Source: a virus. From it: a DNA stretch of 62,126 bases. Numbering within the stretch: position 1 is the stretch's first letter; each line of letters opens with the position of its first letter. The translations under genes were made by a program, and so were the position numbers. Positions 903-59,880 of this stretch are shown piece by piece. Under the pieces are notes generated by a model. That model did not search any database and was not told the DNA's origin. It saw only the letters and a list, made by a program, of their open reading frames with translations. The stretch lies in IMG/VR virus record IMGVR_UViG_3300034103_001401, positions 1-62,126 of that record; one strand, 5' to 3'.

Positions 903-911
903 ATATTTATA
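903..911 (+). promoter_or_regulatory. late-promoter-like box, ATATTTATA
   Basis: ATATTTATA ends 6 bases before the ATG at 917. On the reverse strand the same bases contain TATAAATA, which matches the T4 late promoter, so this one site might serve both divergent genes. Confidence 0.5.
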
Positions 912-916
912 CAGCA

Positions 917-1327
917 ATGAAAAGATATAGTTTATTATACGAATCTAGCATATATGATTATCTAGTATGGGAACCAACTGGAAAATTACAAGATATCGCC
1001 GATGAGTTAGATAAAATTCCTACGGATAGTACTAAACTTTATAGAGGGATGTCTGAGAAAGAGTATAATATTTTGAAGAGTACTGGTAAAGTTACGTCAA
1101 AAGGTAAAGGAAATACCCGAAACATTGTGGGTAGTTATCTAGCGAGTGATTTTAAATTGGCAGCTAGGTTTGCGTTGGTCAATTACAGAGACAAAGGTGA
1201 GGGTATAGTAGTAGTAATAGATAAAAGTAAGTTACCCGATTTAAAAAATGTAGATCCAGGCAATTATGTTACTAGTTATATACCGATAGAAGCAGTAACC
1301 AAAATTATAGACTTAAAACAGTTATGA
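917..1327 (+). CDS. putative ADP-ribosyltransferase-fold protein
   Basis: A 136-residue protein. The order LYRGMS (about residue 42), a SYLASD strand (about 78), a long hydrophobic strand GIVVVID, and IPIEAV near the C-terminus resembles the R - S/T - E layout of small ADP-ribosyltransferase-fold proteins. I cannot confirm catalytic residues, so this is a fold-level guess. The N-terminus MKRYSLLYES contains Leu-Tyr-Glu, which fits the (L/I)-X-E cleavage rule of T4-type prohead protease, as in the T4 capsid-packaged transferase Alt. It overlaps the next gene by ATGA. If correct, it could modify host proteins at infection. Confidence 0.4.
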   Translation: MKRYSLLYESSIYDYLVWEPTGKLQDIADELDKIPTDSTKLYRGMSEKEYNILKSTGKVTSKGKGNTRNIVGSYLASDFKLAARFALVNYRDKGEGIVVVIDKSKLPDLKNVDPGNYVTSYIPIEAVTKIIDLKQL

Positions 1328-1509
1328 GTAATATTAAACTAACAAAGGCCGAAGCCGAAAAGAAAGTATATCAACTAACAGAAGATCTCTTACACGTTAA
1401 GAAAGACTTCAAGGATGTAGCTGCTGGCTACAAAGATCGCATGAAAGAAATTGAATCTGAAATTAAAGCGATTGTAGAAGAAGCTTCAATTGGAGATCCA
1501 ACTAAGTAA
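1324..1509 (+). CDS. small coiled-coil hypothetical protein (61 aa)
   Basis: A charged 61-residue protein, almost certainly helical, with heptad-like spacing of Leu/Val (for example around LTEDLLHVKKDF). Its ATGA overlap with the preceding candidate ADP-ribosyltransferase gene indicates translational coupling and perhaps a shared role such as chaperone or immunity partner, but nothing in the sequence proves that. A strong terminator follows. Confidence 0.6.
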   Translation: MSNIKLTKAEAEKKVYQLTEDLLHVKKDFKDVAAGYKDRMKEIESEIKAIVEEASIGDPTK

Positions 1510-1514
1510 AACAA

Positions 1515-1536
1515 AACCCGGTCTTTCGACCGGGTT
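1515..1536. terminator. bidirectional intrinsic terminator
   Basis: A 9-bp stem AACCCGGTC / GACCGGGTT with a TTTC loop is followed by T's on the + strand and by T's (AAAACAAAA complement) on the - strand. It separates the convergent genes ending at 1509 and 1543. Confidence 0.9.
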
Positions 1537-1542
1537 TTTTAT

Positions 1543-1824
1543 TTATTGTTTAGGTACTGGTTTAAACGTACCGTCTTTTAAATTCAGACTTCCATCTCCA
1601 TATTTTTGACTCAACGAGTTTAGTAAATTATCTTCTTCTTGTTGAGTTTTCTTCCAATTTTCAAATACTTCGGTTCTACGAAGTGTCAATTCTTTAATTT
1701 GTTGTTCCAAATCGGTTTTCTCCAAATCAACTTGACCCAAAGTAAAGATGTGTTGTTGATAATCGTTTTGCAATTTAGCTATCGATTGCATTTCTTGTTC
1801 TGTAAACTTAATAACGTCACTCAT
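1543..1824 (-). CDS. coiled-coil hypothetical protein (93 aa)
   Basis: A soluble helical protein with a long Gln/Leu/Glu-rich coiled coil (about residues 10-75) and a short C-terminal tail ending in VPKQ. It resembles small conserved proteins of T4-like environmental phages, but I cannot name a family. It lies downstream of the 901-residue collagen-like protein on the same strand (55 bases apart). Its own upstream region has TATATAAAAATA near the start. Confidence 0.65.
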   Translation of the reverse strand: MSDVIKFTEQEMQSIAKLQNDYQQHIFTLGQVDLEKTDLEQQIKELTLRRTEVFENWKKTQQEEDNLLNSLSQKYGDGSLNLKDGTFKPVPKQ

Positions 1825-1879
1825 AGTATTTTTATATACATATGAGTGTCGTTATTTTTTTAGTTTTTATAATCGATTA

Positions 1880-4585
1880 TTATTTGTTTATATTTTTTAA
1901 TAAATTACCAAGTTTTGTTATCGATTCTGCTGCGCCTTTAGTGTCTCCTTTGGACTGAATACCAAAACCTTTTACTTGTGGTTCAGAAGTACTCGTTGGT
2001 TCTGGTTTGATAGATTTAGGTTTCTTGGAACCTTTTGGTTGTTCTTCTGGTTTGTTAGGAGTTATTTGACTGCCGTCTTCTTCAAGAATGAACGTTCTAG
2101 CTGTAGTTACAGCGAATATAAATTTAGGTTTATATTTTTCGTTCATTGGATCATCGATGAATTTAGATATAAATCTAGTATGGGTTTGTAACATACTAGA
2201 AATTTCGCCACTCAATTGATCGTCGCCTTGAATACACTCATTAACTTTATCAAATAGAACTTGATACGAAGCTTGACTTTGGAACTTATATTTTTTAGGA
2301 TTAAAAGTAGGATCTTTCATTATTCCATTTGTAAGAGCCATTACAAAGTGAGAAGTAAATTCTTTTTTCATTGACTCAACAGATAGATTAACTACAGCTT
2401 CTTTCAATTTTCCTTTGAATGAATCTACATATGTTTTTGATATGAGATTTTTATTACCGATTCTAAATGCCATCGGTTTTCCATTCATCAAAATTGTGTA
2501 TCTAGCACTTACATTTGATGAATTTTTGATATAATAAACAACATTTACCTTGTCTGGACCTGTTAATTTTGGTTTCGTATAATCTCCACCTTGAGGAATT
2601 ACGAATCCTTGTAAACGCAACGCGAATACTTGTTTACGAGCAATTTTTCTAATCTTGTCACAATCTTCTGGACCAAATAGATTATCATCGCCTGGTTGTC
2701 CTGGTTTTGGAGGAGTAACTAGTCCAGGTTGTGGTGGTTGTGGAACTGGTGTTGGACCAGGTTGTGGGGTAGGAGTAACTGGTTCTGGTACAATTGGAGT
2801 TGGGCCAGGAGGAGTTGGAGTTGGTTGTGGAGCTGGTACTTTATCTGGAAGTGCTTCTTTATCTGATTTACGTGGATACAACCAATCTTTAACTTTCATC
2901 AAGTAGTCATAAACGTTTTTATCAGTTTCTAATATTTTTTTCTCAACGTCTGCTCTTGTTGGATTTTTAAGTTTGAGTAATATACCAGCATTTGTTAAGA
3001 ACTTATTATAAGCACTTTCGACTGATTTATAATCCATTCTTTCAGCACCCATATTTGCGCCTCTAGTACCAAACGCATATTGAAGAGGATTTGCTTCGGC
3101 TAATAATTCAGCTTTAATCACATCTAGTTCCAAAGCTTCTTGTATACCGAATTTCTTGCTAAACATACTCAATAGTCCTTTTCGCATAAGTTGTTGTCTT
3201 ATGCCAGGAGCATTTATTAATTGTTTTGCTTCACCTACGTCTTTTATGGAATTTATCCACATTTCTAATGCTTCTTTAGGTTGTACATATTGACCATTAA
3301 GAAGTTTTACAACGTCTTGGGTTAACTGGCCAGCTTTTAAAGAAGTCCAATCTGGTAAATTATTCAATGCATTTATTTTTGATTGAATTGTATCGCTTGT
3401 TATTGATGGTACAGTGGTTGTAGTAACTCCTCCAGTGCCACCACCAAATGATGTTCCAGCAGGTCCTGCTGGACCTTGTGGCCCAGCTGGGCCTTGTGGT
3501 CCCGCAGGTCCAGGTCCACTCTCTCCTGGTACTCCAGGTTCACCAGCTGCTCCTGCTGGGCCTTGTGGACCTGCTGGACCCATTCCGCCTGCTGGGCCTT
3601 GTGGTCCCATTGCTCCAGCTGGTCCTTGAAATTTATACATCAACCATTCCATTATTTTTGGAATGTATTTTGTGAACAGATCGCTAATTCCAATTGCTGC
3701 AGCAGTAACGGTTGCACCTTTAACACCGGCACGTACAGGTTCTTCTCCTTTTAGTATGCCCACTATGGTTCTTAATGCGGTGCCCAATATAAATGTTGAT
3801 ATCTTTGGAATCAATGCTAATGGACCAAGTTTAACAACGAGCAAACTAACGAGTGCGCCAATAAGTATATTGGTTATATAAGGATGTTCTCTTGCAAAAA
3901 TACCAATTTCATCTAAAGCATCATTGAATGATTGTGGCAATTTAGCACGTAGTTTATTCAACAATTGTTCTACTTTAGATTGTTTTGCAGCAATTTCTTC
4001 TGGAGTGCCTGCTGACCATTGTAGTTTAGGATTTGGTCTTAAATTTGCAAATCTTTTGCCAAATAGTACACCTAAACCAGGAATGCCTTGTTTAGTATTT
4101 TGTGTATTTGCGGTACCTCCGAATTTATCGGCACTTGTTTCTGGATCTGGTGCATATTGACTTGGACCAGGACCAACTCCTCGATAATTTTGAAGTGCAG
4201 CGGAAACATTAGCTGGCATACCTGAAAGCGCAGGCGGAGGAGATGTTGTAACGTAAGGTTCGGTTTGTTGTTTAAACGTCTGAAAATAGGTATCTAATTT
4301 AGTTTTAGCGTCTCCAGCTTTAAATATATTTTTGAAACCAGCGGTTGCTCTTTGAAATATATCTTCGCTTAATTTAGAATCTTGTTTTATTATTTCGTAT
4401 AAAACCTCTGTTTGTAATTCTATACCCTGATTGATACCCTCTTGATATAATTTATAGAATTTTGATTTTTTACTAACTCCTAAATATGATTCGGTCAAAG
4501 ACTTCTTAGAATTAAATTCTGTATATATAAATTCTCTTAAAATGTCTTTTATTACAGCTTCTTTATGATTTAAATTTTGGTCCAT
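1880..4585 (-). CDS. collagen-like, membrane-segment-containing structural protein
   Basis: A 901-residue mosaic protein. Residues 1-110 are helical. Residues 238-306 hold hydrophobic segments ([36 protein letters not shown]). Residues 320-377 are collagen-like Gly-Pro-Ala/Gln triplets. Residues 400-575 are helical, 580-633 form a Pro/Thr-rich linker, and 636-800 form a mixed alpha/beta domain containing several Cys and Lys. Collagen-like triplets in phage proteins usually form trimeric stalks of fibres or virion-associated proteins, so a trimeric virion or injected protein is plausible. The hydrophobic part beside the stalk is odd for a simple fibre. The function is not established. It is transcribed opposite to nearly all other structural genes, from its own box just upstream. 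Confidence 0.8.
3455..3628 (-). repeat. collagen-like Gly-X-Y triplet tract
   Basis: About 19 Gly-X-Y triplets, mostly GPA and GPQ with a central GEPGVPGES interruption, encoded by nearly repetitive CCAGCTGGTCCT-type DNA. Its high GC contrasts with the AT-rich surroundings. Such tracts change length easily by slippage. Confidence 0.9.
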
Positions 4586-4589
4586 ATTA

Positions 4590-4598
4590 AATAAATAT
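4590..4598 (-). promoter_or_regulatory. late-promoter-like box, ATATTTATT (reverse strand)
   Basis: Read on the reverse strand, ATATTTATT ends 5 bases before the ATG of the 901-residue gene. It shows that the box orientation follows the gene, not the genome strand. Confidence 0.55.
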
Positions 4599-4626
4599 AG
4601 ATTTGATCTAGAACTTTAAAATAATA

Positions 4627-4655
4627 TTGACATCTTCAGCTTCTGTATATATACT
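4627..4655 (+). promoter_or_regulatory. sigma70-like promoter
   Basis: TTGACA (4627-4632), 17 bases, TATACT (4650-4655): an almost perfect sigma70 promoter. The predicted start near 4662 leaves a 74-base leader before the gene at 4736. Confidence 0.75.
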
Positions 4656-4735
4656 TGAGTGAATATGAGACTGGTAATCTTGTATTTCTAATTATATATA
4701 CCAACAGTTAAACACTTAAAAAGTAATAATATAGT

Positions 4736-4930: not shown

Positions 4931-4932
4931 TT

Positions 4933-5182: not shown

Positions 5183-5210
5183 AAAGGCGTTACGTAATGG
5201 TAACGCCTTT
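5183..5210 (+). terminator. intrinsic terminator
   Basis: An 11-bp stem AAAGGCGTTAC / GTAACGCCTTT with loop GTAATG, followed by a T tract. It closes the 4736-5160 operon. Confidence 0.92.
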
Positions 5211-5225: not shown

Positions 5226-5234
5226 CTATTTATT
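5226..5234 (+). promoter_or_regulatory. late-promoter-like box, CTATTTATT
   Basis: It lies between the terminator and the ATG at 5241 (7 bases from its end). The terminator-box-gene order supports a promoter role. Confidence 0.55.
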
Positions 5235-5240: not shown

Positions 5241-5600
5241 ATGGATAAATCATTTAGTGTAATGTCTTTACCGTTTGAGTATGATGAAATGGAATCATTT
5301 ATTCAAACATACAAAGATAAGTTAATGGAACAAATTGTATCATCGGTACAATATGCGTTGGACAATGATTATCCTACTGTCGAGGTATTTTCTTTTAAAA
5401 ATTCAGATTTTATTGTTATATTAACCCAATCGGAATTCAAGGATAATATTGATAATGTCTTTGAATATTATGTGAATACGGAGCAATATGAATTTTGTTC
5501 CCGTTTAGTAAAATTAAAAAAACAAATAGAACAACATGAGCAAAAACAACAAGAAAGACACAAGCCCAAAAGTTCATCAAAACGCAAAGATCAGAGATGA
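5241..5600 (+). CDS. hypothetical protein upstream of phoH (119 aa)
   Basis: An acidic N-terminal 90 residues (DYPTVEVFSFKNSDFIVILTQSEF looks like beta-strands) and a very basic C-tail rich in Lys/Gln/Arg. Its last 65 bases overlap phoH in another frame, so the basic tail and the PhoH N-terminus are encoded by the same DNA. No family recognised. The overlap implies coupled translation with PhoH. Confidence 0.65.
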   Translation: MDKSFSVMSLPFEYDEMESFIQTYKDKLMEQIVSSVQYALDNDYPTVEVFSFKNSDFIVILTQSEFKDNIDNVFEYYVNTEQYEFCSRLVKLKKQIEQHEQKQQERHKPKSSSKRKDQR

Positions 5601-6252
5601 TATCAAGATCGATAAACGTGAATTAACACCAAAACAAAAAGAATTATTAGAATTATTACAAAATAAGAATACAAAGTGTGTCTTTATTGCTGGACCAGCC
5701 GGTACATCAAAAACTTATACATCTGTTTTAGCCGGTCTGAATTTATTGAATCAAAAAAGAGTAAGTGAAATAGTATATGTTAGAAGTATAGTTGAAAGTA
5801 GCGATAGTAAGTTAGGATTTTTGCCTGGGGAAATGGATGAAAAAATGAGTCCATATATTCAACCACTTATTGATAAGTTAGAAGAATTGGTACCAAAACA
5901 CGATATTGATAAGTTGAAAAAAGAAGAACGTATCCATGGATTTCCAATAAACTTTTTACGTGGTTTGAGTTGGAATGCTAAATGTATTGTAGCGGATGAA
6001 GCACAAAACATGACTAAGAAAGAACTTACTACGTTAATTACACGTGTAGGTGAATTTAGTAAATTGTTTATTTGCGGTGATCCAGATCAAAGCGATATTA
6101 ATGGTAAAAGTGGATTTGTACCAATGATGAATGTATTTGACGACGAAGAAAGTAGAAATAATGGTGTATATGTATTTAGATTCGAAGAAGAAGATATTGT
6201 GAGAAGTGGATTAGTTAAATTTGTATTAAAAAAACTAAAAACTCTGCAATAA
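5536..6252 (+). CDS. phoH: PhoH-like P-loop ATPase
   Basis: A 238-residue PhoH-family ATPase. Walker A is GPAGTSKT (residues 53-60) and Walker B is IVADEAQN (D154, E155); the later motif FICGDPDQSD is typical of PhoH and related SF1-like ATPases. Phage PhoH proteins are widespread in marine phages; their exact role (RNA metabolism or phosphate stress) is unsettled. The start at 5536 is the only ATG before the ATPase core, so the 65-base overlap with the upstream gene is probably genuine. The N-terminal 25 residues are basic and probably disordered. Confidence 0.93.
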   Translation: MSKNNKKDTSPKVHQNAKIRDDIKIDKRELTPKQKELLELLQNKNTKCVFIAGPAGTSKTYTSVLAGLNLLNQKRVSEIVYVRSIVESSDSKLGFLPGEMDEKMSPYIQPLIDKLEELVPKHDIDKLKKEERIHGFPINFLRGLSWNAKCIVADEAQNMTKKELTTLITRVGEFSKLFICGDPDQSDINGKSGFVPMMNVFDDEESRNNGVYVFRFEEEDIVRSGLVKFVLKKLKTLQ

Positions 6253-6254: not shown

Positions 6255-6263
6255 ATATTTATA
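6255..6263 (+). promoter_or_regulatory. late-promoter-like box, ATATTTATA
   Basis: Directly after phoH and 8 bases before the first fibre gene's ATG at 6271, so the fibre genes may be uncoupled from phoH. Confidence 0.5.
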
Positions 6264-7806: not shown

Positions 7807-8151
7807 ATGGCAATAAGTCCCTGTAACACTTTAAATGTAAAAACGCTTAGAATAAGTCAATTAGCTTCTTCTGCTATTAGTTCCAATGATGTATTGATGA
7901 TTTCTCAGTATGATAGTATCAATAACGTATATTATTCTAAAAAAGCTACATTTGGAAATTTAATAACATATTTTGGTACCGTTAACGCTTCTTACAAAGG
8001 TTCATTTACAGGTAGTTTGGATATAACTTCTGGATTCACAGGATCTACCGTGGTAATATCTCCTAGCGCTGGTACATTTTTAAATGATAATTTTCTACCA
8101 ATATTTTTGAACGGAAATCCTTACAAAATACCATTGTATCCAAACGTTTAA
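7807..8151 (+). CDS. short fibre-like paralogue (114 aa)
   Basis: It has the same N-terminal module as its neighbours (LRISQLA...SNDVLMISQYD...KKATFGNLITYF) followed by one SYKGSFTGSL segment and a short end. Compared with the 503- and 392-residue paralogues it lacks shaft and tip. It may be a minor virion protein, an adaptor, or the remnant of a longer fibre gene. The stop codon TAA overlaps the next box. Confidence 0.6.
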   Translation: MAISPCNTLNVKTLRISQLASSAISSNDVLMISQYDSINNVYYSKKATFGNLITYFGTVNASYKGSFTGSLDITSGFTGSTVVISPSAGTFLNDNFLPIFLNGNPYKIPLYPNV

Positions 8152-8159
8152 TATTTATT
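8151..8159 (+). promoter_or_regulatory. late-promoter-like box, ATATTTATT
   Basis: It overlaps the last base of the preceding stop codon and ends 5 bases before the ATG at 8164. Confidence 0.5.
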
Positions 8160-9475: not shown

Positions 9476-9958
9476 ATGTCAGTAATTAGATACAATCCGG
9501 CGTTTCGCCATTTAAATCGTGATGAGTTTTTAACTCCATTCGATAAGTTGTTTGATGAAGTATTCACTTCACAATTCCCAGAAATCACAAAAGAACTAGG
9601 TATAGGATTCTTTGAAAAACAAAGTTATCCCCGTGTAGATGTGATTGATTACAATGATCGTGTAGAAATTTTAGCAGAAATTCCAGGTCTGTCTAAAGAA
9701 GAAGTATCAGTTGATGTACAAGAAAATGTACTTACTATTAGCGGTCAAAAGATTCGAAAACTTGAAGATACAGATCTACAAGATCGCAGATACATTCGTA
9801 GAGAATTAAAACATAGTAGTTTCAAACGTAGTTTTACATTAGGCGATATCATTGATAAAGACGAACCATTGGCTAAATTTGAAAATGGTTTGTTGACAGT
9901 CACTCTTAATAAGTTGAAACCAACTGTACCGACAAGTAAGAAAGTAAAGATTGATTAA
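9476..9958 (+). CDS. hsp20: Hsp20 / alpha-crystallin small heat-shock protein
   Basis: A 160-residue small heat-shock protein. The alpha-crystallin domain spans about residues 50-140, with VDVIDYNDRVEILAEIPGLSKEEV, a conserved SGQK turn, and the ending F-x-N-G-L-L-T-V-T-L. The C-terminal I-x-V-like tail is present as KVKID. These proteins hold unfolding proteins in solution; in T4-like aquatic phages they are thought to assist virion assembly or host takeover. Monocistronic: its own sigma70-like promoter and a terminator flank it. Confidence 0.95.
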   Translation: MSVIRYNPAFRHLNRDEFLTPFDKLFDEVFTSQFPEITKELGIGFFEKQSYPRVDVIDYNDRVEILAEIPGLSKEEVSVDVQENVLTISGQKIRKLEDTDLQDRRYIRRELKHSSFKRSFTLGDIIDKDEPLAKFENGLLTVTLNKLKPTVPTSKKVKID

Positions 9959-9982: not shown

Positions 9983-10008
9983 AACCCCGTTATTAAATTA
10001 ACGGGGTT
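9983..10008 (+). terminator. intrinsic terminator after hsp20
   Basis: A 10-bp stem AACCCCGTTA / TAACGGGGTT with a 6-base loop, then a T-rich tail. Confidence 0.92.
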
Positions 10009-10020: not shown

Positions 10021-10029
10021 ATATTTATA
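10021..10029 (+). promoter_or_regulatory. late-promoter-like box, ATATTTATA
   Basis: 12 bases after the hsp20 terminator and 4 bases before the ATG at 10033, leaving no room for a normal Shine-Dalgarno. Confidence 0.6.
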
Positions 10030-11245: not shown

Positions 11246-11559
11246 TGATATATGTTATATTGATAGCATTATTGGCATCACTAATAGTGAATATTTTTTT
11301 ATTAGTGGCCCTTAAAAAGTCTTTTGAACAAATAGACCAATTGGAGTCTTGGTTATTAGAATTCAAATTGCTTGTAAAAAATACATATAATAAGTTGAAA
11401 TTTGTTGATGATCGGGGTATCTTTGTTAAAGATGATGATGTTGGCTTTTTATTTACAGATCTGCTTAATATCATCGAACTAACGAATAAAAGAATTCAAA
11501 CTGATGATAATGATAAACCTACCGCTATTAATGAAAAAAACAAAATCGAAACCTTCTAA
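11245..11559 (+). CDS. membrane-anchored small protein (104 aa)
   Basis: Residues 2-24 form one hydrophobic helix (VILIALLASLIVNIFLLVAL), followed by a soluble helical part with acidic residues. A single-pass membrane protein with its C-terminus probably in the cytoplasm. It overlaps the start of the candidate sigma factor by 29 bases. No family recognised. Confidence 0.65.
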   Translation: MIYVILIALLASLIVNIFLLVALKKSFEQIDQLESWLLEFKLLVKNTYNKLKFVDDRGIFVKDDDVGFLFTDLLNIIELTNKRIQTDDNDKPTAINEKNKIETF

Positions 11560-12493
11560 AAAAATAAAGAAGATCGCTGTTACTAAAGACAGTGTTAAAA
11601 AAATTAAGAAAGTAGTAAAGAAGGTTAAATCGGTAAAAAAACCTAAAATTACCATCGATATTGTTATTACAAAAAAAGAAAAAACTCCCAAGACTATTTC
11701 TAATATAGAAGTTCCAAGAACAATTCAAATAGAACATATATCAGATAACGCCTCTGACTCACACGAAGAATCTGCTTTTGACATTAACGGAGAACGTAAA
11801 AAACGTCGTGGTAGAAATAAGAAAGAAAAGATATATTTTTCTAAAAAAACTGAAGATGCTATTATTGAATACAACAATGAAGAAGATGAAGTAAGACGAA
11901 ATGAAATTTATGAAACAAAGATAAAGTTTAGTTTTGATAAATTAGTAGAAAATATATTTAATACATTTAAATTCACGTATTTTGACAATAGTCCATTGGA
12001 AATTCAGAAAGAAACTGTTTCACATTTAGTAACAAATATTCATAAATTTCAAGCTGGAAAAGGAAAAGCATTTAGTTATTTCAGTATTGTAGCTAAAAAT
12101 TATTTGATATTTCACAACAATAACAATTATAAGAAATTCAACCAACACGTAGATATTAGTGAAACACCAAGCGAATCATCGGTTTGTTTACAAACAGAAG
12201 ATGCACATCATAAAGATATTCAGACTCAAGAATTTATGAAGTTGATTGTAAATTATTGGGAAGCAAATATAACTAAGATTTTCAATAAACAAAAAGATTT
12301 AAACATCGCATACGCTGTTATAGAACTATTCAGAAACTGTGAAAGAATAGAAAATTTCAACAAAAAAACTTTGTACCTGTATATCAGAGAATTGAGTAAT
12401 TGTAAAACCCAACAAATTACAAAAGTTATCAACAAAATGAAAACATATCAAAACCTCGTAATGAGAAATTATAGTAATAGAGGAACATTATAA
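11531..12493 (+). CDS. candidate late-transcription sigma factor (gp55-like)
   Basis: The start at 11531 (MKKTKSKPSKKIKK) is preferred over 11504 because it gives less overlap with the upstream gene; the protein is then 320 residues. The first 80 residues are Lys-rich and disordered. At about 132-208, KAFSYFSIVAKNYLIFHNN followed by KKFNQHVDISE resembles sigma region 2 as it appears in T4 gp55 and in small ECF-like sigma factors. T4 gp55 is 185 residues, so this would be an extended relative. If right, it would recognise the late promoters, here perhaps the recurrent TATTTATA box. Weak similarity by eye only. Confidence 0.55.
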   Translation: MKKTKSKPSKKIKKIAVTKDSVKKIKKVVKKVKSVKKPKITIDIVITKKEKTPKTISNIEVPRTIQIEHISDNASDSHEESAFDINGERKKRRGRNKKEKIYFSKKTEDAIIEYNNEEDEVRRNEIYETKIKFSFDKLVENIFNTFKFTYFDNSPLEIQKETVSHLVTNIHKFQAGKGKAFSYFSIVAKNYLIFHNNNNYKKFNQHVDISETPSESSVCLQTEDAHHKDIQTQEFMKLIVNYWEANITKIFNKQKDLNIAYAVIELFRNCERIENFNKKTLYLYIRELSNCKTQQITKVINKMKTYQNLVMRNYSNRGTL

Positions 12494-12510
12494 TATCTAA
12501 ATTGTTAATA

Positions 12511-12534
12511 AAACCACTCCAATCGGAGTGGTTT
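12511..12534 (+). terminator. intrinsic terminator
   Basis: A 10-bp stem AAACCACTCC / GGAGTGGTTT with loop AATC, then T's. It ends the 10033-12493 operon. Confidence 0.92.
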
Positions 12535-12536
12535 TT

Positions 12537-12545
12537 CTATTTATA
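12537..12545 (+). promoter_or_regulatory. late-promoter-like box, CTATTTATA
   Basis: It begins 3 bases after the terminator stem and ends 6 bases before the ATG at 12551, making it the likely start of the large baseplate operon. Confidence 0.6.
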
Positions 12546-27566: not shown

Positions 27567-27588
27567 TCTAAATACGTTGAAATCTTCC

Positions 27589-27597
27589 TATTTATAT
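27589..27597 (+). promoter_or_regulatory. late-promoter-like box, CTATTTATA
   Basis: Ends 5 bases before the ATG at 27602, in the only gap of the baseplate/fibre region with a clear box. Confidence 0.5.
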
Positions 27598-31022: not shown

Positions 31023-31031
31023 ATATTTATT
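31023..31031 (+). promoter_or_regulatory. late-promoter-like box, ATATTTATT
   Basis: Ends 16 bases before the ATG at 31047, a slightly longer gap than at most sites. Confidence 0.5.
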
Positions 31032-36000: not shown

Positions 36001-36202
36001 ACCAAATATTATTTGTATCGATGAAGGATTCGGATGTGCAGATAGTGATCATTTGGGTCAGATGGGAGCTTTGTTTAGTTATTTGAAACATCAATTTGAT
36101 TTTATTTGGGTAATTAGTCATTTGGATCAAATGCGAGACATGGTAGACGAACAAATCGAAATAAAAAAAGATAATGGGCTTAGTAAAGTAGTATATAAAT
36201 AA
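33017..36202 (+). CDS. fused gp47-gp46 (Mre11-Rad50/SbcD-SbcC-like) recombination nuclease
   Basis: One 1061-residue ORF joins two proteins that are separate in T4. N-terminal nuclease: ADIH (D19, H21), GDVFHN (56-61), GNHD (91-94), later HGPV and LGDIHKH, the metallophosphoesterase motifs of gp47/Mre11. From about residue 390 comes the ATPase: Walker A APNASGKS (419-426), a long coiled coil, a zinc-hook C736-x2-C739, ABC signature about 968-975 (EMASGMEKFVSG), Walker B IICIDEG (D1002, E1003). The complex resects DNA ends for recombination-dependent replication and degrades host DNA. The open frame continues without break, so the fusion is real in this sequence unless the assembly is wrong. 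Confidence 0.93.
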   Translation: MIVLKNTDDKINCVMHIADIHIRLTKRHDEYTSVFERFYNALDKAKTLNAILVIAGDVFHNKSDLSPECVKIGSDFLKSCADRVPVILTAGNHDATLANKSRLDCLTPIVQALNHPNLYYLKDTEVYRYQNILFNNFSVFDDPDKYIRYKDIPSKHRVETNHHIALFHGPVNHAVTDVGYTVSNRAITNELFDGHHIAMLGDIHKHQILQEYDETESKPVIVYAGSMIQQNHGEDLKGHGFLMWDLKRKVYKHYELKNDYGFYTIEINKGKLVTDISNIPSKVRIRTLCCESIPSQVKEIINEVKNKCDIIETTFNRIDEPTTDLTLKSGQIFDIHNIFDVDYQNKLIEENLLSKSVSTDLIYKVKELNKTINLEIPKDKAPKNIRWKPKIFEFDNMFSYGEGNLIDFTKLKGTIGLFAPNASGKSSIMDALAFCVFDKFSKGYKAVHVLNTQKMSFRCKFNFEVNGMDYFIEREGKADKKGNVKVDVKFYKIENGNEVPLNGEARRSTNDIIRDYVGTYEDFILTVLSIQNSKSGSFIDLGQTERKDLLCQFMGLTVFDQLYTIANDKFKETNTLLKNISKDSLIEDLQNVSGSIDLNNKNISQYNCDIKDLEVKKEDQNNKLLELSNNIIKTANFDFDIIELESEKIQLGSKIDTFETDINQKKTKFSSIETQLSNLSSSLKSCENIESDYDQYKICKDNESKKSSEIEKLKVVVKNKIDKLKKLEEHKYDPNCTYCVNNVFVKDAIKTKEELELDKNKGKILVEEFNVIKSKLDSFGDIESRYKECQRVDAEKVKLEKTKEVLSTAILRDENFKIRLQNDLNRVIQNIDTFYKNKDIIENNSKLLVSVNEVKTIVKNIESEIKSVNNRLFTSSTEKGKLELQYKNTTEQLNKVKELEASYEAYKLYTNIISRDGIPYEIITKTLPEIEKEVNNILQQLVEFSITLQTDGKNIMTNIVYDDKRWPLEMASGMEKFVSGLAIRVALINISNLPRPNIICIDEGFGCADSDHLGQMGALFSYLKHQFDFIWVISHLDQMRDMVDEQIEIKKDNGLSKVVYK

Positions 36203-44998: not shown

Positions 44999-45007
44999 AT
45001 ATTTATA
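44999..45007 (+). promoter_or_regulatory. late-promoter-like box of the sheath gene, ATATTTATA
   Basis: 34 bases before the ATG, so the mRNA would have a leader of about 28 bases containing the Shine-Dalgarno AAAGGA (45025-45030). This is a different layout from the boxes lying next to the start codon. Confidence 0.6.
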
Positions 45008-45040: not shown

Positions 45041-48000
45041 ATGCCAATACAAGAAGGTGGAACATTCGCACCAACACAAAATATAGTAAGTCCAGGGGTT
45101 TTTACCCGTGAAAACGATCTTTCGGCACTAGCACAAGGTGTCGCAAATATAGGTGGAGCTATAGTAGCTCCATTTGCTGACGGACCAGCATTCTTCCCAG
45201 CAACAATTTCCGAAGTAGCTACTTTAGAAAGTACTTTCGGTTTAGCTGACGGAGTATATTATGGTCCATATACCGCAAAAGAATATCTACAACAACAAGG
45301 TATCGTTACAGTTGTTCGTGTAGGTGGTCTAACTGGTTACTGGCAAAAGAGTCCATTGATCGTTTATGCTCAACCAGGATCATGGGATCGTGGAACAGAC
45401 GCAGGTGCTATTACAACAGCATCATTCATGTATTTAGATGATACTAGTTATACTACCAATATTAATTATCAACAAAGTAGTTCCGTGTTGTATTCATCTG
45501 GTAGTCAATCAAGTAGTGAATTTAAAGGATTAAATGGTAAAATTACAGTAACCAAAGCATCTACCAGTGAAATTTCATCGTTTTTGTTGAATAATATCAG
45601 TGGTTTGCCATATTATTTATCACTATCAAGTTCATTGGCTTCTTCTGGAAGTAAAGGTAAAGTATTAAAAATAACCACTACCGATTATTACAATCAATTT
45701 ACCGCATCTGTACAAAGACGCAATTTTACGTTGGGTAAAACGTCTGGATATAGTTTGGCAAATTTTGATTTTCAAAAATCACGTTTTTCTGGATCCATTT
45801 CGTCCAGTGCAACTACAGACTCGATGGTATTTGATACAAATACATTCGGAACTGTTGGTGGTACTCAAAATAATGCTCCATATTCTACAACCTATCCGTA
45901 TTATAGTTATTTGACCGCTTCATATACATTAAGCGGAAATGTTATTACATACGGATTAGTATTTGCTAAATTGCCAAGTAATCAAACAACCAATTTCTCT
46001 TCGGTTACTTACAATTTAACCAAATCTACAGGAAGTTATGAGTTCCGTGTAGACAATTCAAGATTGTCATTGAGCGGCGCAATTAATGTAAAATTCGGAT
46101 CCGTAGCTGCTACAAGTTTAGTAAATGCGGCATCAACAGATGGCACAGGAACACTAAGTGGTAGCGTATTATACGCCGGTCAACAATTGAATTTGGGTAG
46201 TATTGGTCCTATTTTATTCACTAAGAAAGGCGCACCAGGTAATTCAAGTTATCCATATTACTATCTAAGCTCTAGTGTACAAGCACAAGATGTAAGTGCC
46301 GAAACTGCAATTTCTACAGCATTCGCTGAAAGCACAACTACAGTAGCTCTATTTTCTAGTTCTTACTTCGGAAATACAGCTGGAAATGTAATAGTTGATT
46401 ATGACCCAGATGTATTGAATGTTTCCAGTAACACTGTGAGACTCATAAGTGGTAGCGTTGAGTCTTTACGTGGTTCAGGAACATGTGTTGCTGGTCTACA
46501 ACTTAAAGGTGTAATCAGTGGTAATTTTGCTAAATATACAGGAACATTTAGTCCAAATGGTACGAATAGCAACGATCCATGTAATCCAAATACATCAGGT
46601 CGTCAAAATATGATATTGGCAGTGTTAGCAAATACCCAAAATGCTTCTACACAATTTAGTAACGACTATGAAGTGTATGGATTTAATGGTACAACATTAA
46701 GTCAATTAACAAGTAGCGTATTCCCATATAAGAACTTGATTAATCCAAACGAAAACGTTTATAACTTGGCATTGAGATATAGTTTCTCAAATCCAAATGG
46801 CAGTGTTTCTTCCGGTATATATGGATATTATGATTTCAGTCTAAATGAAAATGATAATAACTATATTAAAGATGTATTCGGAATCGATCCAACTGTTGGA
46901 AATCCAGACAAACAAATTGCCGGTCAAAAAGTTGAAGCTGCTTACAACTATGTTCTATTTGAAGACAGTATCAAGAAGTTCGTATCTGAAAAGACCAGTA
47001 CTTTGGGTTGGAGATTGCAAGTTGGTACCAATAGTCTATCTGGAAGTACAATTGTAGGCGAACCTCTAAAGTTTGTCGATCAATATAGTACCAATTTAAA
47101 TGCTGGAGATAGTCAATTTGGTATCACAAACGCTTATACTCCATGGGTATATTCACAAAAGATTGCTCCATTCAAAGGTAGTGCAAACGAAGCTGCTGTT
47201 CCAACTAAGTTCCAATTGTTTAAAGCTCACACTTTGAGTGATGGTACATTGAGTAACAAGAAATACAAGATTGAAATTAGCAACGTTAAGTTGGCTGGTA
47301 CAGTTCCAGGAAGCGATTGGGGTTCATTTACTCTAGGTGTTCGTGCTTATAGTGATACTGATAAGAAACCTAAGTATTTGGAAATCTTCCAAAACTTGAA
47401 TCTAGATCCAGACAGTGCAAACTTTATTGCACGTAGAATTGGTGATAGATATGCTTATATTACTTATGCTGGTAAGATCATTCAATATGGTACTTATGCT
47501 AACTTGAGTAGATATATCAGAATCGAAATGTCTGATGTAGCATATCCAGTTGTTTGTATACCATATGGATTTGAATCTTATAGTACTCCGATCAATAGTA
47601 CTGCAAACATCTATGTGCCATACGTACAATATAGTAAAGCAAGTATTTACGGTCTAGCTCCTGGTAAGTATCCATCTGGCACTGTATTCGGTGCAGTTCC
47701 AGGAACTGATTCCGAAATTCAATCTCTATATCCAACTTCTTCTTTTGGAGTTGGTGTAGATAACAACACTAAACAATATTTCAATCCATTGCCATACTAT
47801 GGTAGCACCGATAGTAATGGTTTGAATATCGACTTCGATCTTGAAGATAAAGTTTACGGTACATCTACCGCTAAATATTATGCTCAAGGTACATCAGCAA
47901 GTACTGGTTCATTACTAAACCCAAGCTTGAGCGGTAGTATTCCAAGTGTTTATGACGCTGTGAATGAATCTACATATGTAAAACTACGTAAGTTCGTACT

Positions 48001-48982
48001 TGGATTCCAAGGTGGATTTGAAGGTCAATGGCCAGCAATTCCAATCAATGTTGGTAGTAACATTACTCCAGGCAACACTCAAGGTCTAGATTGTACAAAC
48101 ATTAATAGTCCAGGTAGTATTGCTTACAAACAATGTATTGCTGCTCTAGGTAACGCAGATGAATTTGATATTAATTTGATCGTGTTGCCTGGTATCTTCC
48201 GTTCTCTACACAGTTATGTCACCGAATTGGTAATTGATATGTGTGGAACTCGTCAAGATTGTTTCTACATCATGGATAACGTAGTATTCCCAGCAAGTAA
48301 TCAAACTGTAGGATTGATCGATGCTGCTATCAACAGTGTCGCAGACATTGACAGTAACTATGTAGGTACTTATTATCCTTGGGTTAAGATTCTAGATACT
48401 AATACCAACAAGATTATTAGTGTTCCTCCTTCAGTAGTATTGCCAGCAGTTTACGCTGCTAACGATAACTCCGCTGCTGAATGGTACGCTCCTGCCGGTC
48501 TAAACCGTGGTGGTATTCCAACCGCAGTACAAGTACTTGATCGTGTAACTCACAGTGAACGTGATACCTTGTACGAAGGCCGTGTAAATCCAATCGCAGC
48601 ATTCCCTGGTCAAGGTATTTGTGTATGGGGTCAAAAAACTCTACAAATCGCTCCAAGCGCTTTGGATCGTATCAATGTACGTCGTTTGTTGATCAACTTG
48701 AAGAAGTTTATCGCAAGTTCAAGCAACTACTTGGTATTCGAACAAAATGTTGCTTCTACACGTAACCGTTTCTTGAGTATCGTAACACCATACTTGGAAT
48801 CAGTACAACAACGTAACGGTATCTACGCATTCCAAGTCAAGATGGATGCTGAAAACAATACTCCTGACTTGATTGATCGTAACATCCTCTACGGACAAAT
48901 CTATATCCAACCAACTAGAACCGCTGAGTTTATTATACTCGATTTTAATATACTCCCAACGGGCGCTCAATTTTCTGCCTAA
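45041..48982 (+). CDS. gp18: tail sheath protein gp18
   Basis: 1313 residues, twice T4 gp18 (659). The N-terminus (ISVSPGVF-type VSPGVFTRENDLS, VGGLTGYW) and the C-terminal half (WYAPAGLNRGGIP, LDRINVRRLLINLKKFI, DRNILYGQIYIQPTRTAEFI) are the conserved contractile-sheath core. Residues about 120-590 are an extra Ser/Thr/Tyr-rich beta region with more AT-rich codons (TTT, AAT, ATT) than the core (TTC, AAC, ATC), suggesting separately evolving, surface-exposed domains. The sheath contracts to drive the tube through the envelope. Monocistronic with own box, SD and terminator. Confidence 0.93.
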   Translation: MPIQEGGTFAPTQNIVSPGVFTRENDLSALAQGVANIGGAIVAPFADGPAFFPATISEVATLESTFGLADGVYYGPYTAKEYLQQQGIVTVVRVGGLTGYWQKSPLIVYAQPGSWDRGTDAGAITTASFMYLDDTSYTTNINYQQSSSVLYSSGSQSSSEFKGLNGKITVTKASTSEISSFLLNNISGLPYYLSLSSSLASSGSKGKVLKITTTDYYNQFTASVQRRNFTLGKTSGYSLANFDFQKSRFSGSISSSATTDSMVFDTNTFGTVGGTQNNAPYSTTYPYYSYLTASYTLSGNVITYGLVFAKLPSNQTTNFSSVTYNLTKSTGSYEFRVDNSRLSLSGAINVKFGSVAATSLVNAASTDGTGTLSGSVLYAGQQLNLGSIGPILFTKKGAPGNSSYPYYYLSSSVQAQDVSAETAISTAFAESTTTVALFSSSYFGNTAGNVIVDYDPDVLNVSSNTVRLISGSVESLRGSGTCVAGLQLKGVISGNFAKYTGTFSPNGTNSNDPCNPNTSGRQNMILAVLANTQNASTQFSNDYEVYGFNGTTLSQLTSSVFPYKNLINPNENVYNLALRYSFSNPNGSVSSGIYGYYDFSLNENDNNYIKDVFGIDPTVGNPDKQIAGQKVEAAYNYVLFEDSIKKFVSEKTSTLGWRLQVGTNSLSGSTIVGEPLKFVDQYSTNLNAGDSQFGITNAYTPWVYSQKIAPFKGSANEAAVPTKFQLFKAHTLSDGTLSNKKYKIEISNVKLAGTVPGSDWGSFTLGVRAYSDTDKKPKYLEIFQNLNLDPDSANFIARRIGDRYAYITYAGKIIQYGTYANLSRYIRIEMSDVAYPVVCIPYGFESYSTPINSTANIYVPYVQYSKASIYGLAPGKYPSGTVFGAVPGTDSEIQSLYPTSSFGVGVDNNTKQYFNPLPYYGSTDSNGLNIDFDLEDKVYGTSTAKYYAQGTSASTGSLLNPSLSGSIPSVYDAVNESTYVKLRKFVLGFQGGFEGQWPAIPINVGSNITPGNTQGLDCTNINSPGSIAYKQCIAALGNADEFDINLIVLPGIFRSLHSYVTELVIDMCGTRQDCFYIMDNVVFPASNQTVGLIDAAINSVADIDSNYVGTYYPWVKILDTNTNKIISVPPSVVLPAVYAANDNSAAEWYAPAGLNRGGIPTAVQVLDRVTHSERDTLYEGRVNPIAAFPGQGICVWGQKTLQIAPSALDRINVRRLLINLKKFIASSSNYLVFEQNVASTRNRFLSIVTPYLESVQQRNGIYAFQVKMDAENNTPDLIDRNILYGQIYIQPTRTAEFIILDFNILPTGAQFSA

Positions 48983-49006
48983 TCTAGGATAAAGAAAATT
49001 AAACAG

Positions 49007-49032
49007 AACCCCGCTTAGAAATAAGCGGGGTT
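49007..49032 (+). terminator. intrinsic terminator after sheath gene
   Basis: An 11-bp stem AACCCCGCTTA / TAAGCGGGGTT with a GAAA tetraloop followed by a T6 tract. Confidence 0.93.
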
Positions 49033-49047
49033 TTTTGTTTGATCTGT

Positions 49048-49056
49048 ATATTTATA
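49048..49056 (+). promoter_or_regulatory. late-promoter-like box, ATATTTATA
   Basis: Follows the sheath terminator and ends 4 bases before the ATG at 49060. A TTG at 49039 in the same frame is therefore a less likely start. Confidence 0.6.
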
Positions 49057-55813: not shown

Positions 55814-55844
55814 CACAATTCCTATATATTTACATAGTTGATCT

Positions 55845-55853
55845 ATATTTATA
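55845..55853 (+). promoter_or_regulatory. late-promoter-like box, ATATTTATA
   Basis: Ends 13 bases before the ATG at 55866. Starts a transcription unit carrying head-assembly genes. Confidence 0.5.
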
Positions 55854-55865
55854 AATAATAATAAT

Positions 55866-57720: not shown

Positions 57721-57721
57721 C

Positions 57722-58327
57722 ATGAAACAAGTACTAATCGATGTAATGCCATTTGAGTTTAAAAAGTCCGCCTTAAATGAGTCACTTAAGGACGGAAAAC
57801 TACTCGTTAGTGGCGTACTACAACGTGCTGATGCAAAAAATCAAAATGGCCGTGTATATCCAGTGGATGTATTAAAGAGAGAAGCCGAAAAATACATGCA
57901 AAACTTTGTAAAACAACGTCGTGCTATGGGTGAATTAGACCATCCAGAAAGTAGCGTTGTTAATTTGAAGAATGTAAGTCACAACATCACAGATATGGGC
58001 TGGGATGGAAAAGACTTGGTTGGAACAGTAGAAATTCTACCTACTCCAAGTGGTAATATATTAAGAGATTTATTGCAATCAGGAATTCTTTTGGGTATTA
58101 GTAGTCGTGGATTGGGTAGTGTTAAAAAAGACATGAGAGAAGGTGCCGACGTTGTTCAAGATGATTTTGATTTAATTGCATTTGACTTCGTAAGCAATCC
58201 AAGTACTCAAGGAGCTTTTATGTATCCACAAGGAAAGATTAATGAAAGTGTTGAACAACATAAAACAATTATTAACCCATATAGTAATGTTGAAAGAATT
58301 ATCCACAACATTCTATCAGAACTATAA
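57722..58327 (+). CDS. gp21: prohead core protease gp21
   Basis: The ATG at 57722 is chosen because it begins the conserved strand MKQVLIDVMPFEF; a start 75 bases earlier would lie within the upstream gene. The protein is 201 residues. RRAMGELDHPES gives H74 and LGISSRG gives S127/S128, the expected His and Ser of the T4-type serine protease; NGRVYPVDVL is also conserved. It cleaves scaffold, capsid and internal proteins after (L/I)-X-E. Confidence 0.93.
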   Translation: MKQVLIDVMPFEFKKSALNESLKDGKLLVSGVLQRADAKNQNGRVYPVDVLKREAEKYMQNFVKQRRAMGELDHPESSVVNLKNVSHNITDMGWDGKDLVGTVEILPTPSGNILRDLLQSGILLGISSRGLGSVKKDMREGADVVQDDFDLIAFDFVSNPSTQGAFMYPQGKINESVEQHKTIINPYSNVERIIHNILSEL

Positions 58328-58335
58328 TATTTATA
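58327..58335 (+). promoter_or_regulatory. late-promoter-like box, ATATTTATA
   Basis: Starts at the last base of the gp21 stop codon and ends 5 bases before the ATG at 58340. Confidence 0.5.
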
Positions 58336-58339
58336 AAGT

Positions 58340-58783
58340 ATGAAATTAAAACATTTACTAGAAAATTCTACTGAACACGCATATACTCCTCTTACCGTTT
58401 ATGAGAAGAAGAATATGGTTGAAACGATCAAATCATATAACGAATATCGTAAAGGTTTGAAAACAGACAGTGTATATGAAACCGCACAAAAAATAATGGA
58501 AGCTGTTAATTTAGCAGAACGTTATGCTTTGAAAGAATGTGGCGATTGGATGGAAGCCAAGATGGTAGAACGTGATATGAAAGAAATTAAACGTGATGCC
58601 GCAAAGATGTACGAAGAAGCTCAAAAAATGAAAGCTATTGAAAAACAACTTGAAATGTTGTACGAAGAAGTTGGTCGTCGTTTAGAAAGATATTTTGAAA
58701 TTGCTGATCCAATCAATGAAGATCCACAAGCTTATCAAACACAAAATCAACAAAGTTCAGTTAGTATCGATTCATTGGAATAG
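58340..58783 (+). CDS. coiled-coil prohead-core-like protein (147 aa)
   Basis: Begins MKLKHLLENS (Leu-Leu-Glu, a possible protease site) and continues as one long charged helix (MKEIKRDAAKMYEEAQKMKAIEKQLEMLYEEVGRRLERY). The location directly after the protease matches T4 core genes such as 22/67/68. It may be a small core protein. Its end overlaps the convergent reverse gene by 23 bases. Confidence 0.65.
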   Translation: MKLKHLLENSTEHAYTPLTVYEKKNMVETIKSYNEYRKGLKTDSVYETAQKIMEAVNLAERYALKECGDWMEAKMVERDMKEIKRDAAKMYEEAQKMKAIEKQLEMLYEEVGRRLERYFEIADPINEDPQAYQTQNQQSSVSIDSLE

Positions 58784-59228
58784 AATCGATATATTCTAAC
58801 ATTTTATCAAACGTTTCGAATACATATTTTCTATTAGTTTCCAAAACATAGCCTTCGTCAGTTTTATAGACGAAGGCTTTTATTTTTTCATTTTCTAATT
58901 GTAAAGCTGGAATTTCAATTTCAGAGAACATTTTATAGTCATCGTCGATTCTGAAATTCATCTCGCCTAACATATCCAACTCTGAAAAATTCCATCCGTT
59001 TGGATGATCCAAATCTTCTAACTTGTATATTTTAATATCTTCCTCAAAGTTATCGTTGTTTAAAAAATTAATCAACTTTGGACTTTTGTGGTTGTTATAA
59101 TTATTATTCATCGCACGAACGTCTGGATTAGAATATGGATTCTCATCGCCTTTTCTTTTGATATTTTTGTAATTATCCTTGGGTTGATTCATGTGTCTAT
59201 TAAAATTTGGATTGAAATTGTATGGCAT
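58761..59228 (-). CDS. hypothetical protein (155 aa)
   Basis: Asn-rich N-terminus (FNPNFNRHMNQPKDNYKN), then an acidic alpha/beta region (EIPALQLENEKIKAFVYKTDEGYVLET). No family recognised. Transcribed against the virion genes and coupled with the upstream gene at 59233-59826 (4 bases apart). The + strand terminator hairpin of the preceding operon is embedded in its coding sequence. Confidence 0.6.
   Translation of the reverse strand: MPYNFNPNFNRHMNQPKDNYKNIKRKGDENPYSNPDVRAMNNNYNNHKSPKLINFLNNDNFEEDIKIYKLEDLDHPNGWNFSELDMLGEMNFRIDDDYKMFSEIEIPALQLENEKIKAFVYKTDEGYVLETNRKYVFETFDKMLEYIDSIPMNRY
58850..58878 (+). terminator. intrinsic terminator inside the convergent gene
   Basis: Stem AGCCTTCGTC / GACGAAGGCT (10 bp, 9-base loop), followed on the + strand by TTTATTTTTT. 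It can stop transcripts of the portal-protease operon although it lies within the reverse-strand CDS. Confidence 0.75.
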
Positions 59229-59232
59229 AATA

Positions 59233-59826
59233 TTACATTGATCCTAATGTTGTATTAATTCTGTCGATGAAATCAGATAACGTTTTACTTTTTTCTGCAA
59301 GATTTTCGTTATCAAAACTGTTGCTTAATAGATCTAATATTTCTTTATCGGGTTTATCTGGAAATGTTCTTTGAATAATACAAGCGTATTTGTTTTGTTT
59401 ATCTTCGTTGTCTACCAACTTTTTAAACACATATTTTTTATTGGTACCATTACTATTGACTTCTGTAGAAACTTCGTTGGTACTTTTATTTTCTTTGAAT
59501 TTTGTTTTTCCAAATCCACTAAATCCATTTTGTTTGGTTTGAAATACTTGTAATTCTTTTAGATCAAATGGTACTCCAACTTGTTTAGATAAATGTTTTT
59601 TAAAACTTATACCGCTTACTTTTTTAATTTTACCCAAACTATATTCATTTTCTTTTAATTTGTGAATAATTTCTTTTACTTTAGTAAAATCTTTTACACT
59701 ACTTGGTTTTATAGTACGTGCCATTTTACGAACTTGTGGAGATACTTCTTTTGATTTAATTCCGCCTTTTTGTAAAGTTCTTACTAGTCTAAAAAGTTTT
59801 GCTTGTTTTTGCGATTTTGCAGGCAT
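59233..59826 (-). CDS. basic protein with DUF3008-like N-terminus (197 aa)
   Basis: The N-terminus MPAKSQKQAKLFRLVRTLQKGG...VRKMARTI resembles the small DUF3008-type motif (M-P-A-K-S-x-x-Q) found alone or as a lead segment in phage and bacterial proteins. The remainder is Lys-rich with FSGFGKTKFKENK in the middle and a helical end. Probably a DNA- or virion-associated basic protein. First gene of a two-gene reverse operon with its own box. Confidence 0.6.
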   Translation of the reverse strand: MPAKSQKQAKLFRLVRTLQKGGIKSKEVSPQVRKMARTIKPSSVKDFTKVKEIIHKLKENEYSLGKIKKVSGISFKKHLSKQVGVPFDLKELQVFQTKQNGFSGFGKTKFKENKSTNEVSTEVNSNGTNKKYVFKKLVDNEDKQNKYACIIQRTFPDKPDKEILDLLSNSFDNENLAEKSKTLSDFIDRINTTLGSM

Positions 59827-59831
59827 ATATC

Positions 59832-59840
59832 AATAAATAT
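59832..59840 (-). promoter_or_regulatory. late-promoter-like box, ATATTTATT (reverse strand)
   Basis: Reads ATATTTATT on the reverse strand and ends 6 bases before the ATG at 59826. Together with the + strand box at 59872 it forms a divergent promoter region. Confidence 0.55.
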
Positions 59841-59871
59841 AAAATATTTTTATTTATTTCCATTTTATATT

Positions 59872-59880
59872 ATATTTATT
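59872..59880 (+). promoter_or_regulatory. late-promoter-like box of the scaffold/capsid operon
   Basis: ATATTTATT preceded by T, 101 bases before the ATG at 59981. Predicted start near 59886. The long leader and Shine-Dalgarno AAAGG resemble the sheath layout and suit strong expression. Confidence 0.5.

Follow-up and report, generated by a model that had tools for sequence, protein, structure and literature searches.

The sequence analysed here, called the window below, is the entire linear IMG/VR record IMGVR_UViG_3300034103_001401 with a length of 62,126 bases, and the element in question is the box (A/C)TATTTAT(A/T), which recurs a few bases before start codons. We judge it probable that this box is a T4-type late promoter, in which the middle AA has become TT and which is set against the open reading frame (ORF), with the late mRNAs being leaderless. 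In the proposed mechanism, the box would be the −10-type element of the late promoters in a T4-related myovirus lineage, with no −35 element. It would be equivalent to TATAAATA altered at the two central bases (TATTTATA/T, with A or C in front). The RNA polymerase of the host, equipped with a divergent gp55-like sigma factor (predicted at 11504–12493), would probably read it on the coding strand. In the window clade, most boxes would be set so that the RNA begins at the A of the start codon or within one or two bases of it, and some genes, including the tail sheath gene, would retain a leader.

Position and strand of the box in the window

The spacing is defined as the number of bases between the box and the A of the ATG, and the starts were taken from our own gene caller (first ATG, at least 60 amino acids, greedy). 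A box lies 3–7 nt before the ATG at 10 of the 54 called starts, compared with a mean of 0.12 and a maximum of 3 when the 40-nt regions in question were dinucleotide-shuffled 3,000 times. Only two of the 1,931 other ATGs have a box at this distance, and one of the two is the true start 5241, which was missed by the caller (Fisher, 6e-15). The reverse complement WATAAATAK likewise occurs 28 times in the window; a single copy has a start within 30 nt (11 nt away), and none is at 3–7 nt. The initial annotation had called for counting the box and testing its position against shuffled sequence. The positional test agrees with its proposal, and the total count is modestly raised (28 against a mean of 17.3, with 3 of 100 shuffles reaching 28), which is too weak alone. 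Placement beside the starts, not overall frequency, is the decisive signal. Sixteen of the 28 matches are located outside called ORFs, and the non-ORF sequence amounts to 3,291 of the 62,126 bases. Chance in an AT-rich sequence would fit a total only modestly over expectation, but it is contradicted by the positional tests and by the conservation described below, and its probability is negligible.

The T4 form TATAAATA is not enriched ahead of the window starts (3 within 30 nt). The box had been described in the initial annotation as a reverse-complement-like form of the T4 sequence. It is indeed not the T4 sequence, but no flip is needed: a box on the same strand with AA changed to TT is sufficient. 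Outside the middle pair, TAT..ATA reads the same on both strands, so that TATAAATA and TATTTATA share every base but the central two. An ordinary T4 late promoter (TATAAATA) on the opposite strand, firing away from the gene, would leave the same string, because TATAAATA read on its complementary strand gives TATTTATA. T4 itself contains divergent pairs of this kind, and the few cases of TATTTATA near its starts represent the opposite strand of divergently oriented late promoters. At short spacing, however, the bias to one strand is absolute, and in immuto, introduced below, it is 28 to 3. Most upstream genes are co-directional, so the transcripts would be antisense. The reversed promoter was rejected because of the strand bias, and we regard it as scarcely credible.

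The 15 boxes listed in the initial annotation were all found, and the entry 27589 actually begins at 27588. As listed, eleven end 4–8 bases ahead of the A of the ATG (3–7 nt between). The box ATATTTATA at 903–911 (+) is 5 nt from ATG 917 (ORF 917–1327, 136 aa, no known function); an identical box and spacing is found in the related contig G011, and the spacing is 4 nt in G010 and G012. On the minus strand, ATATTTATT at 4590–4598 is 4 nt from ATG 4585 (ORF 1880–4585, tail-fibre-like), and ATATTTATT at 59832–59840 is 5 nt from ATG 59826 (ORF 59233–59826, 197 aa). On the plus strand, CTATTTATT at 5226–5234 is 6 nt from ATG 5241 (ORF 5241–5600, ahead of the PhoH ORF 5536–6252), and the relatives' proteins align with this ORF from residue 1. 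Five plus-strand boxes precede further genes with no known function: ATATTTATA at 6255–6263 (7 nt to ATG 6271, 503 aa), ATATTTATT at 8151–8159 (4 nt to ATG 8164, 392 aa), CTATTTATA at 12537–12545 (5 nt to ATG 12551, 113 aa, the first ORF behind the candidate sigma gene), CTATTTATA at 27588–27596 (5 nt to ATG 27602, 247 aa) and ATATTTATA at 49048–49056 (3 nt to ATG 49060, 96 aa). The box ATATTTATA at 10021–10029 (+) is 3 nt from ATG 10033 (337 aa), and this spacing is also found in the orthologues of five relatives. Behind the head protease gene, ATATTTATA at 58327–58335 (+) is 4 nt from ATG 58340 (147 aa).

Three boxes on the plus strand are leadered, namely ATATTTATT at 31023–31031 (15 nt to ATG 31047), ATATTTATA at 44999–45007 (33 nt to ATG 45041, tail sheath) and ATATTTATA at 55845–55853 (12 nt to ATG 55866, 294 aa, right behind the portal gene). 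The sheath leader contains a conserved GAAAGGATATTAA-like stretch. A start thus follows 11 of the 15 boxes at 3–7 nt and 3 of them at 12–33 nt. The remaining one, ATATTTATT at 59872–59880 (+), has no start for 100 nt (the next called start is 59981), and its membership is doubtful. The 13 matches absent from that list comprise 12 in called ORFs (7 sense, 5 antisense) and one intergenic antisense match (44967−).

Intrinsic terminators on the plus strand at 5183–5210, 9983–10008, 12510–12535 (between the candidate sigma gene and its downstream box) and 49005–49034 end 1–15 nt before the boxes 5226, 10021, 12537 and 49048, respectively, as had been annotated. The box might instead act in the mRNA as a signal for translation or processing, as it occupies the position expected of a ribosome-binding site, and Bacteroidota-type starts respond to bases upstream of the AUG according to the available part of one report (PMC6847099). 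However, the unchanged box is found at distances of 3 to more than 30 nt from the ATG, boxes stand right behind terminators, and operon-internal genes have no box. A signal in the mRNA is therefore very improbable.

The box in related phages

The proteins of the window include a gp20-like portal, the large terminase, a tail sheath, a head protease, a baseplate wedge protein and a tail fibre. According to this protein set, the virus is classified as a distant T4-type myovirus. The nearest named phages by portal are Microcystis phage Mel-JY01 (56%) and the Flavobacterium immuto phages (52.5%); next come an uncultured 484-kb phage and Rhodothermus phage RM378. A scan of viral contigs gave at least 80 loci with portals 79–100% identical to that of the window, and the group is therefore common in that collection. 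The phages probably infect Bacteroidota. The host of immuto is Flavobacterium, a member of this phylum, and the host search gave a single contig from a Chitinophagaceae metagenome-assembled genome with a related portal.

The loci of the relatives were obtained by similarity and are hence related, so that the counts per contig are not independent. For example, G001 and G004, and also G002 and G010, have identical sigma proteins, and the G003 portal is 99% identical. Counting by gene family and by ortholog pair lessens this bias without removing it. Of all boxes with a start no more than 40 nt away, those at 7 nt or less number 10 of 12 in the window, 12 of 15 in G010, 7 of 9 in G011, 18 of 26 in G001, 10 of 12 in G012 and 8 of 14 in G013; the reverse complements in the same range number 1, 1, 2, 1, 2 and 1, respectively. 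The larger contigs of the clade show a spacing peak at 3–5 nt, with 4 nt being the most frequent. In 155 loci around the sigma gene, 1,799 starts remained after dereplication, and 261 boxes and 25 reverse complements lie no more than 40 nt from them. In the relatives overall, the spacings fall mostly at 3–7 nt or at 10 nt and more. When each gene family is counted once, the box is 7 nt or less from the ATG in 48 of 75 families on the window side and in 8 of 38 on the immuto side (p 2e-5). With the same counting, no −35 element is detected: none of the positions −48 to −9, numbered from the last base of the box, carries more than 0.19 bits of information.

Ortholog pairs with at most 95% identity were compared. 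The box is present in both partners of 64 of the 96 pairs, and the spacing is equal within 1 nt in 62 of these 64, with only 56% identity over the 20 nt upstream of the box. Codons 2–12 show 94, 70 and 228 substitutions at codon positions 1, 2 and 3. Such a bias right after the ATG indicates that coding begins at that ATG. What the sequence shows directly is the existence of the box, where and in which orientation it lies, its conservation, its classes of spacing and the sigma-like protein family.

In immuto, 28 boxes and 3 reverse complements are located within 40 nt of 210 starts; five boxes are at 1–4 nt and the rest at 10–30 nt. The box is found at 19 of 81 starts in the structural half and at 10 of 128 elsewhere (p 0.002), and it precedes, for example, the terminase, portal, sheath, tube and tape-measure genes. 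As in T4-type systems, the box thus stands before presumably late structural genes, both in this half of immuto and in the window at the sheath gene and at the genes following those of the portal and the protease. In Mel-JY01 the boxes are mostly leadered, and a Shine–Dalgarno-like site is present at 6 of 9 starts with a box 10–35 nt away. No box was found at 143 starts of RM378 or at 52 starts in a 49-kb stretch of the 484-kb LR756508, which has a related portal. In the T4 late region used as a control, 8 of 9 TATAAATA boxes near starts sit 24–28 nt away.

Near spellings were kept out of the counts. Single-mismatch cores number 9 in the window, compared with 3.4 expected and a shuffle maximum of 9. 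In the window group, TACTTAT occurs 4 times against 3 reverse complements (anagram mean 0.7) and is perhaps over-represented; TATATAT occurs 12 times against 9. In loci of the immuto group (L219–L298), TATTTAG is over-represented at 4–30 nt before starts (27 against 2 reverse complements), and it may perhaps be a second spelling of the box there.

The promoter behind the sigma gene could be read from 145 of the 155 loci, giving 116 distinct upstream sequences. On the immuto side, the box is 9–17 nt from the ATG in all 65 cases. On the window side (n = 51), it is at 3–6 nt in 24 cases, at 9–17 nt in 2, at 18–22 nt in 6 and farther away in 3; GGAGG is present in three of the 22-nt cases. The orthologous promoter therefore occurs in all three spacing states. 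A second promoter, that of the gene starting MKLD- (81525 in immuto), has a spacing of 3 nt in most of the immuto-side loci that carry it, and thus both spacing classes coexist in one phage. These features suggest a broader scenario, to which we give a little less than an even chance. A T4-related lineage with its own sigma factor (a gp55-like sigma-2 region with its own C-terminal domain, some members having no recognisable clamp system) and a TATTTAT late box would have evolved its late translation by sliding the box: placed at the ATG it would give leaderless mRNAs, at 9–17 nt short A-rich leaders (the immuto group), and, in a few others, at about 22 nt leaders with a GGAGG site.

An apparently abundant freshwater and marine T4-related lineage thus seems to have altered the box, retained the architecture and shifted the box onto the start codon. 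As orthologous promoters exist in leaderless and leadered forms, and as immuto is cultured with a Flavobacterium host, the loss of the leader is directly testable. Translation of leaderless late mRNAs in Bacteroidota is likewise open to direct test by using immuto.

The candidate sigma factor

The candidate late sigma factor is encoded at 11504–12493 (+) and has 329 residues. It consists of a disordered basic N-terminus (about 1–110), a sigma-2-like domain (about 110–216) and a C-terminal helical domain (about 234–326), and the AlphaFold model shows confident helices at 114–216 and 234–326. On the evidence of its orthologues, a weak Sigma70_r2 match, this model and the comparison of structures and profiles, the protein is likely to be a gp55-like sigma factor. 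Orthologues are present in 10 of the 11 box-bearing records, and the exception is the 48-kb fragment G013. RM378 has a distant sigma-like homologue (25%). Sigma70_r2 is reached weakly by 21 of 90 family members (best E 0.0063). Among the same 90 proteins, the T4 gp55 profile phrog_234 is reached by five with E up to 0.1 (best 0.044), and the best PHROG counts belong to families of unknown function (9 members with phrog_36140). Searches of the PDB by phmmer and by profile returned no sigma factor, and a scan with the Mel-JY01 sigma protein returned no relatives.

Structure comparison (VIA) gave sigma factors throughout. The T4 gp55 open complex 7d7c_F ranks first (Z 10.7, root-mean-square deviation 5.4, 117 residues), although it is tied with other sigma factors within 1 Z and helical models may reach such Z values by chance. 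By hhalign against 15 gp55 sequences, the sigma-2 regions are aligned in register (E 0.0039, probability 8.6). The trimmed profile scores 28.2 against gp55, compared with 19.8 for the highest of 40 decoys. Tyr97 of gp55, which stacks on A-12, is aligned with Tyr192, and this residue is Tyr in all 90 family members. The equivalent of Thr99 is variable (Ser in 46, Gly in 35 and Gln in 9). The sigma-2 fold and the remote gp55 similarity predicted in this way are suggestive, not strong. For the C-terminal domain, the best Z is 5.6, with sigma-4 domains and TFIIB among the rows; the fold match is unclear, and a sigma-4 role is not claimed. The T4-type clamp profile phrog_223 matched in T4 and G018 only among 14 records. 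Gp44-type loaders are found in several relatives, and neither clamp nor loader was matched in immuto; a profile miss is no proof of absence in either case. For a widespread family of phage proteins that lack annotation, the analysis thus suggests a possible function.

Proposed transcription start, known systems and other genes

From the features above we infer the promoter role, the start point, leaderless mRNA, the late timing and the reading of the box by this sigma factor. The initial annotation had supposed a start about 6 bases after the box, as in T4. The composition of the leadered copies would move this to the fifth base: in 150 such copies the A frequency at the fifth base is 0.81, and 0.84 in immuto-side families, and a spacing of 4 nt is the commonest in the relatives. 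Spacings of 3, 4 and 5 nt put the A of the ATG at the fourth, fifth and sixth base, respectively. The argument for the fifth base is one of consistency, drawn from base composition in an A-rich sequence. Leaderless mRNA would be the best supported reading for 11 of the 15 window boxes; of the remaining four, three would yield leaders of about 8–29 nt and one has no adjacent gene.

The alternative that the box is a late promoter but the mRNAs are not leaderless, with the RNA beginning a few bases inside the ORF or variably and a downstream AUG or a very short leader being used, is unlikely but is the most serious of those weighed. With only 3 nt in between, RNA beginning at the sixth base as in T4 would start on the G of the ATG, and the start codons were called simply as the first ATG. 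However, the N-termini align from residue 1 in 64 of the 96 ortholog pairs, with codon constraint right behind the ATG, and ORF 5241 also aligns from residue 1 in relatives. The conserved spacing in 62 of 64 pairs would be without reason unless that ATG matters.

Ribosome-binding sites were searched as AGGA, GGAG or GAGG before box-free starts. They are near chance in immuto (7 of 149, expected 7.6), G010, G002 and G011. They are slightly raised in the window (5 of 36 against 2.3), G001 (8 of 85 against 5.4), G012 (6 of 37 against 2.4) and G013 (5 of 27 against 1.5), and clearly raised in Mel-JY01 (56 of 208 against 20.1) and T4 (20 of 35 against 5.1). At the leaderless starts of the window, the absence of such sites (0 of 10) is uninformative since the box occupies that stretch (expected 0.0). 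Leaderless mRNAs make up 5.5% in F. psychrophilum, that is, few in flavobacterial hosts, in the part of the report available (PMC9723704).

The box could also be a promoter of the host type, recognised by the sigma factor of the host itself, as the probable hosts are Bacteroidota, whose promoters likewise depend on a −7 box. According to the same partial source (PMC9723704), however, the flavobacterial consensus is TAnnTTTG, not TATTTAT. This host motif was tried and rejected, as its counts ahead of starts show no enrichment in the window (5 against 2.7), G001 (5 against 5.7), G002 (7 against 5.2) or immuto. In addition, no −33/−35 signal was found upstream of the boxes, and the box is common to phages of Flavobacterium and, weakly, Microcystis. 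A host promoter is thus quite improbable.

Several observations weigh against a leaderless late promoter read by this sigma factor. Where the box is 3 nt from the ATG, RNA beginning at the fifth base would have the T as its first position. About a third of the ortholog pairs (32 of 96) do not have the exact box in both partners, and 16 of the 51 window-side promoters behind the sigma gene have no exact box. In Mel-JY01, the enrichment is weak despite its sigma protein (9 boxes against 1 reverse complement at 230 starts). The window sigma protein itself has no Pfam or PHROG family match, phrog_234 is matched in one of 17 records, T4 alone, and none of the Foldseek matches of the model falls below E 0.001. 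Box and sigma factor are connected only by their co-occurrence.

The late transcription of T4 is a textbook case, in which the promoters are followed by leaders containing ribosome-binding sites. The window boxes resemble the T4 late promoter (TATAAATA, gp55/gp33/gp45) in being a lone AT-rich 8-bp box with no −35 element before presumably late genes on either strand, and in the predicted gp55-like sigma-2 fold of the candidate sigma factor. The bases −13 to −11 and −8 to −6 are also kept, as far as the available parts of three reports describe them (PMC7892883, PMC2988020, PMC1524935). In the same reports, A-12 and A-8 enter deep pockets of gp55, and A-9 occupies a shallow one (PMC7892883); TATTTATA loses A-9 and keeps A-12 and A-8. 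The differences are TT at −10/−9 instead of AA, a spacing of mostly 3–7 nt instead of 24–28 nt, and the lack of a gp55 family match by PHROG.

Other known systems share single features with the box, judging from the sections available. The variant boxes of T4 relatives (CTAAATA in Aeh1, NATAAATA in cyanophages) are in silico drifts of the T4 box (PMC1524935, PMC2984593), but their first positions are changed, whereas the middle is changed here, and leaderless spacing is not described in those sections. The −10 motif of Deinococcus-Thermus lies a few bases before the ORF with strict spacing and gives leaderless mRNA (PMC12340547); however, it is TANNNT read by a cellular housekeeping sigma factor, not a phage late system. 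The phiKZ late promoters (TATG, with G as the start) overlap the start-codon region, and leaderless phage mRNAs are described as frequent (PMC5312081), but the reader there is a phage multisubunit polymerase and the TATTTAT box is missing. In the parts of the open-access literature covered, neither TATTTAT as a late promoter nor T4-like phages with leaderless late mRNAs were found to be described. On this basis, drifted T4 boxes, −10 elements adjoining the ORF in leaderless promoters and leaderless phage mRNAs are known already, and the TATTTAT box at late start codons in T4 relatives appears to be new.

Some other features of the window and its relatives were observed. The tail sheath protein (45041–48982, +) has 1,313 residues, and the known sheath profile is confined to about the last 340. 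The match to the portal extends over about 3.7 kb in three pieces in LR756508.1 (145784–149500) and over 2.6 kb in L299 (4355–6928), as though an intron or intein interrupted the gene. A small heat-shock protein of the Hsp20 family is encoded at 9476–9958 (+). The 1,061-residue protein at 33017–36202 (+) combines a calcineurin-like phosphoesterase domain with an SbcC/SMC-like domain behind it, as though the nuclease subunits gp47 and gp46 had been fused. A phage-borne transfer-messenger RNA (tmRNA) is located at 289–673 (+; Rfam RF00023, 118.6 bits) with the tag AEDNVVSYDFSYDDVVALAA, and it is adjoined by tRNA-Ala and tRNA-Gly genes, the tRNAs lying at 66–140 and 193–266.

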